Below, one piece after another: positions 7,605 to 12,157 of a DNA stretch of 64,000 nucleotides. The notes under the pieces were generated by a model. It saw only the letters and a program-made list of their open reading frames with translations. It did no database searches and had not been told where the DNA came from. Position numbers and translations under genes: made by a program. The stretch covers positions 2,976,001 to 3,040,000 of the forward strand of contig CP000474.1 of assembly GCA_000014925.1 (NCBI GenBank). Reading direction: 5' to 3'. This DNA is from Paenarthrobacter aurescens TC1 (lineage in GTDB: Bacteria > Actinomycetota > Actinomycetes > Actinomycetales > Micrococcaceae). Position 1 is the first letter of the stretch. Each line of letters begins with the position of its first letter.

Positions 7605-8744
7605 CTAGAGGACTTGCCGCTGCAGTGAACGGGCGGCATCAATGGTTGCCTGCCCCAGGACGCGGCTTCCCTGATAGAGAACGACCGTCTGGCCAGGGGC
7701 CACGCCCCTCAGTGGATCCGTCAACGTGACAACGAGCTGGGCACGCTCCACGCCGGATTCGTCGGTAACGGCTTCTACGCGCGCGATTGCAGGAACGGGA
7801 TCTCCGTGGGCCCGGACCTGCGCGTGGCAGTCGAACTCAGCGCCGGTGGCAACTTCGGAAATGGGCAAGCCGGCCCACGAGACCTTGATGCCGCGAATCT
7901 CGTCGATCGCCAGCAGGGCTTCCGGCCCTACAACTACTTTGTTTTCCTTGGGGCGGATTTCCAGGACGAACCTGGGCTTGCCATCCGCCGCGGGGGTACC
8001 CAGCTTCAAACCGCGCCGCTGCCCCACCGTGAAGGCGTTGGCACCGGGATGTTCGCCAACCTTGGCGCCGGTTTCGTCAACGATGTCGCCGGTGGTCATG
8101 TCAATCTTCTCGGCCAGCCATCCGCGGGTGTCGCCGTCGGAGATAAAGCAAATATCGTGGCTGTCCGGCTTGTTGGCCACGGACAGCCCACGACGCTCGG
8201 CCTCGGCACGCACCTCAGCCTTGGACGGGGTGTCTGCCAACGGGAACATGGAGTGCTTGAGTTGTTCGTGGGTCAGGACGCCCAGGACGTAGCTCTGGTC
8301 CTTGGCCCAATCGGCGGCGCGGTGGAGTTCGCGGTTGCCGTCGGCGTCTTCGATGACCTTGGCGTAGTGGCCGGTGCAGACGGCGTCGAAGCCCAGCGCT
8401 ATGGCCTTTTCCAGAAGGGCGGCGAACTTAATCCGCTCGTTGCACCTCATGCAGGGGTTCGGTGTCCTGCCCGCAGCGTACTCGTCAATGAAATCCTGGA
8501 CGACGTCTTCCTTGAAGCGCTCGGAGAAATCCCAAACGTAGTAGGGAATGCCCAGGACGTCGCATGCCCGCCATGCATCGCGCGAATCCTCGATGGTGCA
8601 GCATCCCCGGCTTCCCGTGCGCAGGGTCCCCGGCATCCGCGACAACGCGAGGTGGACTCCGACGACGTCGTGTCCGGCCTCGACTGCCCGGGCTGCGGCC
8701 ACGGCGGAGTCAACTCCGCCGCTCATTGCTGCAAGTACTCGCAT
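7605..8744 (-). CDS. mnmA: tRNA-specific 2-thiouridylase MnmA
   Basis: 379 residues. Makes 2-thiouridine at U34 of tRNA-Lys/Glu/Gln using sulfur relayed from a cysteine desulfurase. The ATP-pyrophosphatase motif SGGVDS is at residues 8-13, the catalytic Cys pair is Cys98 (TPNPCMRC context) and Cys199 (SHDICF), and the PP-loop, central and beta-barrel domains are complete. The frame is open further upstream through the divergent reductase gene, but the ATG at 8744 gives the canonical N-terminus. A TAGAAT -10 candidate lies at 8812-8817 (minus). The partner iscS is nearby but separated by an oppositely oriented gene. Confidence 0.96.
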
Positions 8745-8847: not shown

Positions 8848-8876
8848 TTGACTGGCCCAACCCCTGCTTCTAAAGT
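8848..8876 (+). promoter_or_regulatory. sigma-70-type promoter of the FAD reductase gene
   Basis: TTGACT (8848-8853), a 17-base spacer, then TAAAGT (8871-8876). Spacing is ideal and the boxes are close to consensus. The -10 box lies inside the dyad at 8870-8894, so a bound regulator would block it. Confidence 0.65.
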
Positions 8877-8894
8877 CAAAACAATTGGTTTTAG
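8870..8894. promoter_or_regulatory. candidate operator CTAAA-N15-TTTAG (site 1)
   Basis: A 25-bp dyad overlapping the -10 box of the FAD reductase gene, extended by one more base pair at each flank (TTCTAAA ... TTTAGAA). The same CTAAA-N15-TTTAG layout occurs at 12110-12134 before the ArsR-like regulator. With site 2 inverted, 16 of 25 positions match. Confidence 0.6.
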
Positions 8895-8906
8895 AATCGA
8901 GCTGAC

Positions 8907-10148
8907 ATGGCACACGAACACATGGTTATCGTCGGAGGCGGGCTTGCCGGCGCTACCGCAGCCAAGACCCTCCGCGCAGAGGGCTATGAAGGTCCCGTCA
9001 CCTTGGTGGCCGCCGAGAACCGGACACCCTATATACGCCCACCCCTTTCCAAGGAATTTCTCCTGGGCAAAGCTGAGGCAGATGCTGCTCTGGTAGTGCC
9101 GGATGACTGGTACGGGGAAAACGACGTCGAGCTTCTCCTCGAAAACCCTGCGAGCCGGATCGAGCCCGCGGATCACGCGGCGGTACTGGCCGATGGCCGA
9201 AGCCTTCACTATTCCAAGCTGCTCCTCGCCACGGGCGCCCGGCCACGAACCATCCCGCTTCCAGGCGCGGACCTTGACGGAGTCATGACCTTCCGAACCT
9301 TCGATGACAGTGTGCGGCTTCAGAACCTCCTCAAGAACGGAGGCAAGAAGGTGGTCATGATCGGCTCCGGGTGGATCGGCATGGAACTGGCGGCAGCAGC
9401 CCGCACGTACGGCAACGACGTCACACTGCTGGGGCTGGAAGACATACCACTGAGTGCCGCCATCGGACCCGAACTGGGTGCATACTTCCAGCGGCTCCAC
9501 GAAGATCAGGGCGTCACCTTCCGCCTTCCGGCCAGCGCTGCCGGAATTGACGGACAGAACGGCAGCGCGACGGCGGTCCGCACCAGTACCGGCGAAACGC
9601 TGCCCGCCGATGTTGTGATCGTTGCCGTCGGCGTCGTACCGGACACAGCACTCGGCGAAGCCGCAGGGCTTGCCATCCGCAATGGAATACTGGTGGATGC
9701 CGGGCTGAGGTCCAGCGCACCGGATGTGCTGGCTGCAGGAGATGTAGCCAACGCACTCCACCCGTTTACCGCCGAGCACCATCGCAGCGAACATTGGGCC
9801 AACGCGCTCAACGGCGGCAAGGTAGCTGCAAAGTCCATGATGGGCCAGGATGCCCAACTGGACGTGGTGCCGTACTTCTATACGGACCAGTTCACCCTCA
9901 GCATGGAGTACTCGGGCTTTCCCTCCCTGACCTTCGGAATCACGCCGGTAATCCGCGGCTCGCTGGATGACGGCAGCTTTATCGCTTTTTGGTTGAGGGA
10001 GGGGATGGTAGTTGCGGGAATGAGCGTCAACCAGCGCCGGGTTCAGAAGCCAATCAAGGCGTTGATTTCCACCCGCACCCCTGTGAACGTCACCAAGCTG
10101 ACGGATCCCGGGGTGCCGCTGGACGAGCTGCAGCCCGGTGAGCAGTAG
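8907..10148 (+). CDS. FAD-dependent NAD(P)H oxidoreductase, ferredoxin-reductase-like
   Basis: 413 residues of the pyridine-nucleotide disulfide oxidoreductase/ferredoxin reductase family (AIF/ThcD-like). FAD-binding GGGLAG at 10-15, the family segment [14 protein letters not shown] at 41-54, NAD(P)-binding GSGWIG at 153-158, second FAD motif LAAGDVAN around 270, and a C-terminal reductase domain. It probably passes electrons from NAD(P)H to a ferredoxin or a monooxygenase; no ferredoxin gene is adjacent. Divergent from mnmA and tail-to-tail with iscS with only 3 nt between stops. Control by the 8870-8894 dyad links it to the Cys-containing regulator. Confidence 0.9.
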
Positions 10149-10151
10149 GAC

Positions 10152-11384
10152 CTAGGAAGGTTCCGACGTGCCCTGCCGAGCCACCGTTGCTGCTGTTTGA
10201 ATGCTGGATTCATGACCGGCCATTCCAGCCTGCCGGGCCCTCAGGCATGCCTCTGGCAGGGCCTTCAAGAGCGCGTCCACATCTGCATCGGTGGAGCTGT
10301 GCCCCAGCGTAAAGCGCTGGGCGCCGCGTGCAGTATCTTCATCGAGGCCCATGGCCAGGAGGACGTGCGAAGGCCGGGGAACCCCTGCCGTGCACGCCGA
10401 CCCCGTGGAGGATTCAACGCCTGCCAGGTCCAGGAGAAAAAGCAGTGAGTCGCCTTCACAACCAGGGAAGGTGAAGTGGGCGTTCCCCGGCAGCCGTCCG
10501 TCCCCAGGAGCACCCCTCAGCACCGCGCCCGGGACGGAATCATGTACTCCGGTGATAAGGCGGTCGCGCAACAAGCTGAGACGTTCTTTTTCAACCGGCA
10601 GGTTGGCAGTGACAGCCTCCGCGGCTGCAGCAAAAGCGGCGATTGCGGGAGTATCCAGTGTTCCCGAGCGCACATCGCGCTCCTGCCCGCCGCCGTGCTG
10701 CACCGGCGTCAACTTCACGGCCCTTCCCAGGAGAAGTGCGCCGACCCCCACCGGACCGCCCAGCTTGTGCCCCGAGACGGACATTGCAGAGAGTCCCGAG
10801 CCACGAAAATCCACGGGAATCGATCCGAAAGCCTGGACCGCATCGGAGTGGACCGGGATTCCATGCAGCTTTGCCAGCTCCACAATCTCCGTCACCGGCT
10901 GGATGGTGCCCACTTCATTGTTGGCCCACATCACGGTGACCAAGGCAATTGATTCAGGGTCACGTTGGATTTCCTGCTTGACGACCTCCATCCGAACAGC
11001 GCCGTCGCTATCTACCGGGAGCCACACAACGTCCGCGCCTTCGTGCTTTTCAAGCCATTCGACGGTATCCATGACCGCATGATGCTCGACGGCGGAGCAA
11101 AGGATGCGTGTACGGTGCGGGTTCTCGTCCCGCCTGGCCCAGAACAGTCCCTTCACCGCCAGGTTGTCCGCTTCCGTCCCGCCTGAGGTGAAAATAACCT
11201 CAGATGGGTGCGCCCCGGCTGCCGCTGCCAACGCCTCCCTGGCATCCTCTACCGCTCGCCTCGCGCGGCGCCCCGCGCCGTGAAGCGACGAAGGATTGCC
11301 GGTCCGCGCCAGCTCACGCGTCATCACAGCGAGCGCTTCGGCTGACAGGGGCGTGGTTGCGGCGTGGTCAAGGTATACAGGCAC
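10152..11384 (-). CDS. iscS: cysteine desulfurase, IscS/NifS family
   Basis: 410 residues, PLP-dependent; removes sulfur from cysteine for Fe-S clusters and tRNA thiolation. N-terminus YLDHAATTP, PLP lysine Lys207 in SGHKLGGP, catalytic Cys331 in the mobile loop SSTGSACTAG. GTG start. It lies 26 nt downstream of the ArsR-like regulator on the same strand, so the two are likely one operon. MnmA, its usual sulfur acceptor partner, is 1.4 kb further downstream. The C-terminal 20-25 residues are a variable tail. Confidence 0.95.
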   Translation of the reverse strand: MPVYLDHAATTPLSAEALAVMTRELARTGNPSSLHGAGRRARRAVEDAREALAAAAGAHPSEVIFTSGGTEADNLAVKGLFWARRDENPHRTRILCSAVEHHAVMDTVEWLEKHEGADVVWLPVDSDGAVRMEVVKQEIQRDPESIALVTVMWANNEVGTIQPVTEIVELAKLHGIPVHSDAVQAFGSIPVDFRGSGLSAMSVSGHKLGGPVGVGALLLGRAVKLTPVQHGGGQERDVRSGTLDTPAIAAFAAAAEAVTANLPVEKERLSLLRDRLITGVHDSVPGAVLRGAPGDGRLPGNAHFTFPGCEGDSLLFLLDLAGVESSTGSACTAGVPRPSHVLLAMGLDEDTARGAQRFTLGHSSTDADVDALLKALPEACLRARQAGMAGHESSIQTAATVARQGTSEPS

Positions 11385-11410
11385 CTTGTAATTCTACCGA
11401 CGCCGGGCGC

Positions 11411-12094
11411 TCAGGATTTATTACCAAGGGCAGTGATGCGCGCGCAGCAGTGTCCCGGACCATGGTCCGGATCCGGCACGATGATGCCGGCACTGAGTCC
11501 GGAGGCCGCAGCAGCACCGCTGAGGAACGCGCCGTTCATTGCGCACACCACTTCCGTGTGGTCCCGCGACAAGCGATGGAACGGACAATTGAGCAGGCGG
11601 TATCCCCCGGCGGCGTCCGGCGAGGGGTCATATCCGAGTTCCGAGAGTGCACCCAGGAAATCGCCAGGGCGTCCAACCTCGCTCCCTGCAGCTGCAGCGA
11701 CATCGCGCAACGCTTCCGCCGCCGGCACACCGCCGGCCTGAGAGCGCGTGATCGCCGCGGCCATGAGGTGGCCGGCGAGGTCGTAGTGCCGCTCAGGAAC
11801 AGAGACGCCCACCTCGTCCATGACGGGCCTGTAGAGCTTTGATGGCCGCCCCGACCCTGGCCCCGTCTTCTCAGCGGATTTCCTGAACTCAACCCGCAAG
11901 AGCCCTTCGCGGACCAAACGATCCAAATGGAAGGAAGCCGAACTGCGGGGCACCTCGAGTGCCAAGGCAGCCTGATCCCGACTGACCGCGTCCCCCGTAC
12001 TCAAAACGTACTCATAGAGCCTGCGACGGTTCTCATCGCCCAAGGCAGCAACAGCAGCGATTTTCCGGATCCACGGGAGTTCGGACGTGCCCAT
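11411..12094 (-). CDS. ArsR-like winged-helix regulator with C-terminal cysteine motif
   Basis: 227 residues. The N-terminal winged HTH covers about residues 10-90 (ALGDENRRRLYEYV, then recognition region VPRSSASFHLDRLVREGLL, wing GSGRPSKLYRP). The C-terminal domain has Cys170 and His173 (NCPFH), Cys184 (VCAMNG) and Cys216-Cys217 (GHCCARI). The C-x13-C plus distal Cys layout resembles the cluster-binding SufR family, so an Fe-S or metal sensor is a reasonable inference; true ligands are unknown. It precedes iscS by 26 nt and has a dyad 15 nt upstream of its ATG that fits autoregulation. Confidence 0.85.
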   Translation of the reverse strand: MGTSELPWIRKIAAVAALGDENRRRLYEYVLSTGDAVSRDQAALALEVPRSSASFHLDRLVREGLLRVEFRKSAEKTGPGSGRPSKLYRPVMDEVGVSVPERHYDLAGHLMAAAITRSQAGGVPAAEALRDVAAAAGSEVGRPGDFLGALSELGYDPSPDAAGGYRLLNCPFHRLSRDHTEVVCAMNGAFLSGAAAASGLSAGIIVPDPDHGPGHCCARITALGNKS

Positions 12095-12109
12095 ACACCA
12101 AAGGTATCT

Positions 12110-12134
12110 CTAAAAATAAGAATCGTTGCTTTAG
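12110..12134. promoter_or_regulatory. candidate operator CTAAA-N15-TTTAG (site 2)
   Basis: A 25-bp dyad just upstream of the regulator start codon (12094), with the same half-sites and spacing as the site in the FAD reductase promoter. No strong Shine-Dalgarno sequence is visible between it and the ATG, so it probably lies in the promoter or at the transcript start. Confidence 0.6.
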
Positions 12135-12157
12135 CAGGATCCCGAAAGAGGGCGGGG

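Follow-up and report, generated by a model that had tools for sequence, protein, structure and literature searches.

The closest described counterpart of the protein analysed here is SufR, known from cyanobacteria and, as Rv1460, from Mycobacterium tuberculosis, which combines a winged helix-turn-helix (HTH) with a C-terminal pattern CP-x-x-x-L ... C ... C and has the operator ACACT-N5-AGTGT. In a 64,000-nucleotide stretch of Paenarthrobacter aurescens TC1 (CP000474.1, positions 2,976,001 to 3,040,000; hereafter the window) we analysed a regulator with the same architecture, a nearby gene for a flavin adenine dinucleotide (FAD) reductase, and two short dyads, O1 and O2, that precede the reductase gene and the regulator gene, respectively. 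Rv1460 is reported to need C203, C216 and C244 and to bind an iron-sulfur (Fe-S) cluster (PMC6034842). The window regulator differs from SufR in not standing beside a suf operon: no suf gene was seen next to it, and a separate SufR-like gene of the same genome (protein L144, with the same architecture) precedes a frame that is SufB-like by eye. It differs further in having a CC pair, in its targets (a reductase, DoxX-like proteins and FolE) and in its operator, TTCTAAA-N15-TTTAGAA. From the ArsR/SmtB metalloregulators it is set apart by its second, C-terminal domain. Our results indicate that this operator is conserved in many actinobacteria and is most probably read by the cysteine-bearing SufR relative, which is usually accompanied by the reductase, a small membrane protein and an enzyme of folate or pterin metabolism, and not by the sulfur-donor gene iscS that adjoins it here. 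The regulator very probably represses its own gene and the reductase gene, because a strict form of the site tracks the regulator, the sites lie at the 5' ends of the targets, and O1 lies over the −10 box. For the whole model, in which a SufR-paralogue repressor acts on TTCTAAA-N15-TTTAGAA-type dyads to control the reductase, its own gene and, elsewhere, DoxX and FolE sets, we estimate a probability of about 0.66. The features concerned are the following.

8848 to 8876, forward strand: probable reductase promoter, with a −35 hexamer TTGACT (8848-8853), a 17-bp spacer and a −10 hexamer TAAAGT (8871-8876)
8870 to 8894, no strand assigned: operator O1, CTAAAGTCAAAACAATTGGTTTTAG, with the extended dyad TTCTAA-N17-TTAGAA at 8868-8896
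8907 to 10148, forward strand: FAD reductase, 413 residues, Pyr_redox_2 and Reductase_C domains, putidaredoxin-reductase-like, without cysteine
11411 to 12094, reverse strand: regulator, 227 residues, winged HTH (HTH_20) and C-terminal domain
12110 to 12134, no strand assigned: operator O2, of the regulator-proximal type called site A below
12135 to 12157, no strand assigned: the 23 bp that separate O2 from the next gene; in relatives, a site B and a divergent DoxX-like gene stand here

The two 25-bp dyads are the only exact matches to CTAAA-N15-TTTAG in the window and in the whole 5.23-Mb genome, in which the reversed-pattern control gave none. Exact matches were absent from 100 dinucleotide shuffles of the window, and allowing one mismatch still returned only two sites, against 0.13 expected. 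The dyads thus lie where the first-pass annotation had placed them, at regulatory positions only, and the gene order it described is also correct. O1 ends 12 bp before the reductase ATG, with the −10 hexamer inside its left half-site, and O2 ends 15 bp before the regulator ATG. Given roughly one chance match per genome, the unusual part is that two sites lie 3.2 kb apart and both at promoters. The arrangement TTGACT-17-TAAAGT is the only promoter-like match between 8700 and 12300, at background level there (1 versus 0.7 in shuffles); a −35-like hexamer (four or more of the six TTGACA letters, at a spacing of 10-21 bp) stands upstream of 49 of 49 orthologous reductase sites with at most one mismatch. 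The similarity of the dyads had been put at 16 of 25 positions with one inverted (15 of 25 in direct orientation); the count is accurate, but once the ten fixed letters are given it falls within chance for shuffled inner letters (P = 0.18). O1 is the single match in the genome with at most one mismatch to TTCTAA-N17-TTAGAA, for which the reversed control also gave one, and the stricter form TCTAAA-N15-TTTAGA fits O1 and not O2. A tighter inner palindrome, CTAAARTCAA-N5-TTGAYTTTAG, was dropped, as the inner positions are not consistently symmetric. Because the pattern has a background of about one match per genome and the inner similarity is within chance, the two window sites alone are weak evidence, and the case is therefore carried by conservation in relatives.

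Across 101 genomes of the genus (the genus and order genome sets are samples, drawn evenly), the 25-bp pattern gave 232 sites against 106 for the reversed pattern, again a background of about one per genome, and 12 of the 17 regulator-less genomes carry such a site. The 27-bp form TCTAAA-N15-TTTAGA behaved differently: it gave 139 sites in 86 of the 101 genomes, while its reversed control gave none. This strict form is present in all 84 regulator-bearing genomes and in only 2 of the 17 without the regulator, namely G027, which is 68% complete, and G079, whose site is of a metal type by its inner letters. Of the 139, 75 sites were listed, and in 71 of these the 5' end of the regulator, a paralogue of it, the reductase or a second membrane-protein gene is no more than 250 bp away. 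In the roughly 400 bp upstream of the regulator, the 25-bp site is exact in 74 of 84 genomes and has one mismatch in 3 and two in 7; upstream of reductase orthologues it is exact in 43 of 62, with one mismatch in 6, two in 7, and three or four in 6. Among the regulator matches, those in G014 and G030 are fragments, and those in G049 and G062, at 49% identity, may be paralogues. The scan of related genomes that the first-pass annotation had proposed thus found the dyads conserved before orthologues of both genes, and its background check separated the 25-bp form, which reaches about one chance match per genome, from the 27-bp form, which stands above background.

These counts bear on two other explanations of the dyads. 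That they arose by chance, or are a promoter feature without a regulator, is suggested by the near once-per-genome frequency of the 25-bp pattern, with as many reversed-control matches as noted above, and by the overlap of the left half of O1 with the −10 box. The 27-bp form, with no control match and with nearly all listed sites at the same few genes, largely refutes this reading, which we regard as very improbable indeed. Alternatively, another regulator could bind the dyads and the cysteine-bearing protein could be just one more target, in which case the dyads would look alike; the strict site nevertheless tracks the regulator, and in 3 of 4 cases the promoter of a divergent paralogous regulator itself carries an exact site, so that we consider this explanation quite unlikely. 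The proposal of the first-pass annotation that the regulator binds both sites therefore holds as the likely one.

A second dyad class, CTAAATAGGAATNATTCCTATTTAG, was set aside as the site of another regulator; in L044, the one locus viewed, it precedes a gene that by eye encodes a metal-binding solute-binding protein. This dyad recurs in many genomes of the genus (L044, L037, L038, L040 and others), but the window genome lacks an exact copy. As this class also fits the 25-bp pattern, it inflates the counts obtained with that pattern.

Most relatives carry two sites between the regulator and a divergent DoxX-like gene: an imperfect, regulator-proximal site A and, about 38 bp away, a good, DoxX-proximal site B. 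The DoxX-like gene is divergent from the regulator in 74 of the 101 genomes and has no match in the window genome. Its upstream region, covered in 41 of these 74, holds an exact 25-bp site in 40 of 41. Ten of the 84 regulator-bearing genomes, the window's included, lack a DoxX match; among them site A is exact in G000, G033 and G096 and has one or two mismatches in six. In G065 (L016, 1257-1505) an exact site B is kept beside what by eye is a shortened DoxX remnant, as if DoxX had been lost recently. We write DoxX-like because the proteins of three relatives score below the PF07681 gathering cut-off (15.4, 18.5 and 21.3 versus 23.6). In mycobacteria, a DoxX-containing oxidoreductase complex is tied to oxidative stress; the likeness to that complex lies in the DoxX protein, and the differences lie in these sub-threshold scores and in other partners. 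The second membrane protein has a site of its own, exact in its 25-bp form in 18 of 21 genomes, and of the other three, G099 has the gene behind DoxX. In L056 and L122-L143 this protein is 160-165 residues long and DUF6789/DUF1440-like. In L056 a trehalase-like GH15 gene follows it and the paralogous regulator is divergent from it, whereas in Jiangella (L296) it stands on the regulator's side.

Beyond the genus, an order-wide search found the regulator in at least 24 of 297 genomes, a lower bound, as nine candidates per genome were scored. Of 1879 proteins, 120 were covered by the listing, and 80 of 574 loci were kept, of which 32 served for counting N17 and N18 sites and 33, with 3 plasmid loci, for counting neighbours. 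Twenty-four loci belong to other families, including those of Leifsonia, Agromyces, Cryobacterium, Jiangella, Nonomuraea, Actinokineospora, Micromonospora and Streptomyces and plasmids of Nocardioides, Rhodococcus and Kitasatospora. Near the regulator these 24 loci carry FolE (17), a reductase (17), a DoxX-like gene (9), FolP (7), RibD-C (7) and the second membrane protein (1); Pfam families were confirmed on one full operon, L305. The small regulon of the first-pass annotation had thus missed the DoxX-like gene, the second membrane protein with its own site, and the FolE-reductase operons of other families. In those families the operator takes the form TTCTAA-N17-TTAGAA or its N18 variant, the latter added after the N17 form had failed there; with at most two mismatches it occurs in 20 of 32 loci, against 0.52 expected. 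With at most one mismatch, the 327 kb of the 24 loci hold 13 sites, 11 of them no more than 260 bp upstream of the regulator; of the other two, the Jiangella site directly precedes DoxX and the Kitasatospora site precedes the gene that lies behind the regulator. In L305, L289 and L292, FolE and the reductase are joined by FolP and a RibD-C-type reductase in operons that run divergently from the regulator and may represent a second folate/pterin route. In Rhodococcus opacus, another HTH protein (L373, 4226-4915), which shows a CPF...C...C pattern, is encoded divergently from the ferredoxin gene fdxA and from ctaD, two genes from the regulator's FolE-DoxX pair.

The regulator is a SufR-like protein, a paralogue of SufR, as judged by its sequence. 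It scores above the gathering cut-off of Pfam HTH_20 (34.1 versus 27 bits), and hhalign aligned it with the genome's own SufR-like protein over 193 columns (probability 97, E 1.2e-10), matching C170, C184 and C217 to the three SufR cysteine positions. It has exactly four cysteines, C170, C184, C216 and C217, all in the C-terminal domain, and these are invariant in a 46-sequence alignment that reaches down to about 43% identity and leaves out one locus with an in-frame stop. TIGR02702 has 25 matches across the genome (E up to 10), none of them at the place of the regulator, and against the ArsR/SmtB model NF033788 it scores 22.6 bits, below the cut-off of 55. Among sequences of solved structures no relative was found at E 0.001, two matches being at 0.25 and 0.67; with Foldseek, too, nothing reached E 0.001. 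The VIA-align matches, obtained with the full-length protein rather than the C-terminal domain alone, span residues ~7-108, which is the HTH part. A reading as a defence-system protein was rejected, since it had only weak Csa3 HTH matches (E 6e-5).

The conservation and position of the operator, its co-occurrence with the regulator, the target genes, the homology to SufR and the invariance of the cysteines are established computationally. We infer direct binding, repression, a metal centre, a signal and a physiological role as follows. The 227-residue protein would act as a dimeric winged-helix repressor that binds TTCTAAA-N15-TTTAGAA-type dyads over core promoter elements, a layout that suggests repression by occlusion. 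Its own gene would be repressed through O2 and the reductase gene through O1 over the −10 box; in most relatives the divergent DoxX-like gene, and in some the second membrane-protein gene, would come under the same control, and in other actinobacterial families the regulator is encoded divergently from operons of DoxX, FolE and reductase, with or without FolP and RibD-C. The four cysteines most likely hold an Fe-S cluster, which is what has been reported for SufR, or a metal-thiolate centre of another kind. If this centre were damaged or lost, the operators would be released, and electron-transfer, membrane and folate/pterin functions would be induced as a set that responds to redox or photo-oxidative stress. 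A more specific version is possible but doubtful: an undescribed actinobacterial circuit in which a SufR-derived four-cysteine sensor, with an Fe-S cluster and a vicinal CC ligand pair, reads the redox or photo-oxidative state and switches a pterin/folate, flavin-reductase and DoxX-type membrane module via TTCTAAA-N15-TTTAGAA, pared down to the reductase and the autoregulated sensor in lineages such as the window genome.

Light or photo-oxidative stress itself might be the signal, with the set providing reduced pterin and folate, electron transfer and membrane protection. The frequency of FolE and FolP in the other families points this way, and FolE is among the LitR-dependent light-inducible genes of Pseudomonas (PMC9758184), which makes such a signal a reasonable guess, no more. 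The likeness to the LitR/PplR light-inducible sets consists in this one induced gene; LitR is of the MerR type (PMC6739363), whereas the regulator here is an actinobacterial HTH_20 protein with cysteines. The frames viewed by eye, which were not a systematic search, showed no photolyase or carotenoid gene beside the regulator, and in the window genome both FolE and DoxX are absent from the regulator's set. We hold a light signal to be rather unlikely.

Several observations weigh against the SufR-paralogue repressor model. The inner positions of the dyads are not symmetric, and O2 is an imperfect form with two mismatches to the extended TTCTAA-N17-TTAGAA. Six of the 62 reductase orthologues lack a site even when two mismatches are allowed, and 12 of the 24 other-family loci, mostly of Microbacteriaceae, lack one at a single mismatch or fewer. 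The cysteine spacing is X13/X31 in the regulator and X12/X27 in Rv1460, and only 11 of 32 residues between the C184 and C217 spacing classes resemble SufR in length. Furthermore, the Fisher value for the co-occurrence of site and regulator (4.6e-16) treats genomes of one genus as independent, which they are not.

No paper describing the regulator or the operator was found in the open-access literature searched. The model links a widely spread, unstudied regulator with a clean operator and a short list of targets. An orphan flavin reductase, DoxX-like proteins and a regulator-linked GTP cyclohydrolase can thereby be tested as parts of one pathway. An Fe-S type of cysteine centre would mean that a SufR-type sensor has been re-used away from Fe-S assembly. 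As for the reductase, its Pyr_redox_2 (216.3 bits) and Reductase_C (45.9 bits) scores place it among ferredoxin reductases of the dioxygenase/P450 type, and its best solved relatives are 3lxd and putidaredoxin reductase. With none of the NCBIfam equivalogs listed (HcaD, AndAa and others; 25 of 62 families shown) does it reach the curated cut-off, the best score being 313.4 versus 450.

Two further genes adjoin the reductase and the regulator.

7605 to 8744, reverse strand: mnmA, divergent from the reductase gene, with which it shares the intergenic region of O1; its start lies 125 bp from O1
10152 to 11384, reverse strand: IscS/NifS-type cysteine desulfurase (iscS), a neighbour and possible read-through gene

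The first-pass annotation had read the locus as a regulon for Fe-S or sulfur trafficking, with a regulator that would jointly control the reductase as electron donor and iscS as sulfur donor through O1 and O2. A SufR-like sensor adjoining a cysteine desulfurase is suggestive of such a regulon, and the synteny is consistent with it. In 27 of 30 loci, of which two are the window's own, iscS follows the regulator on the same strand at a distance of 9-130 nt, and regulator-iscS-mnmA is again the gene order in 9 of 12 further Micrococcaceae loci. With a gap of 26 nt, co-transcription in the window is plausible. On the other hand, iscS upstream regions have no site with at most two mismatches in any of 44 relatives, three of the 30 loci have a regulator-iscS gap of 922 nt, and neither iscS nor mnmA occurs near the regulator in any of the 24 other-family loci. 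iscS is also kept in 16 of the 17 regulator-less genomes, at 89-93% identity in one group and 79-84% in another, which suggests more than one lineage of such genomes. At 16 loci of regulator-less genomes neither the reductase, the regulator nor DoxX was found, and mnmA adjoins iscS in 15 and a lipoprotein gene does so in 15. Because these loci lack both the reductase and the regulator and keep mnmA and iscS, the former two are gained and lost together beside an iscS that stays in place. Thus, the common operator of regulator and reductase is retained, and membership of iscS in its own right, together with the logic of electron donor, sulfur donor and sensor, is given up; we regard the sulfur regulon as improbable, and a tempting link between regulator and iscS is corrected. 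Under the SufR-paralogue repressor model, iscS is a syntenic neighbour that may receive read-through from the regulator gene. Since they share the intergenic region of O1, 27 of 30 mnmA upstream regions hold the site, and regulation of mnmA via O1 is conceivable. At the three loci with the 922-nt gap (L023, L025 and L032), the space is occupied by a transporter-like frame of ~295 residues, EamA-like by eye in L023 and L032.

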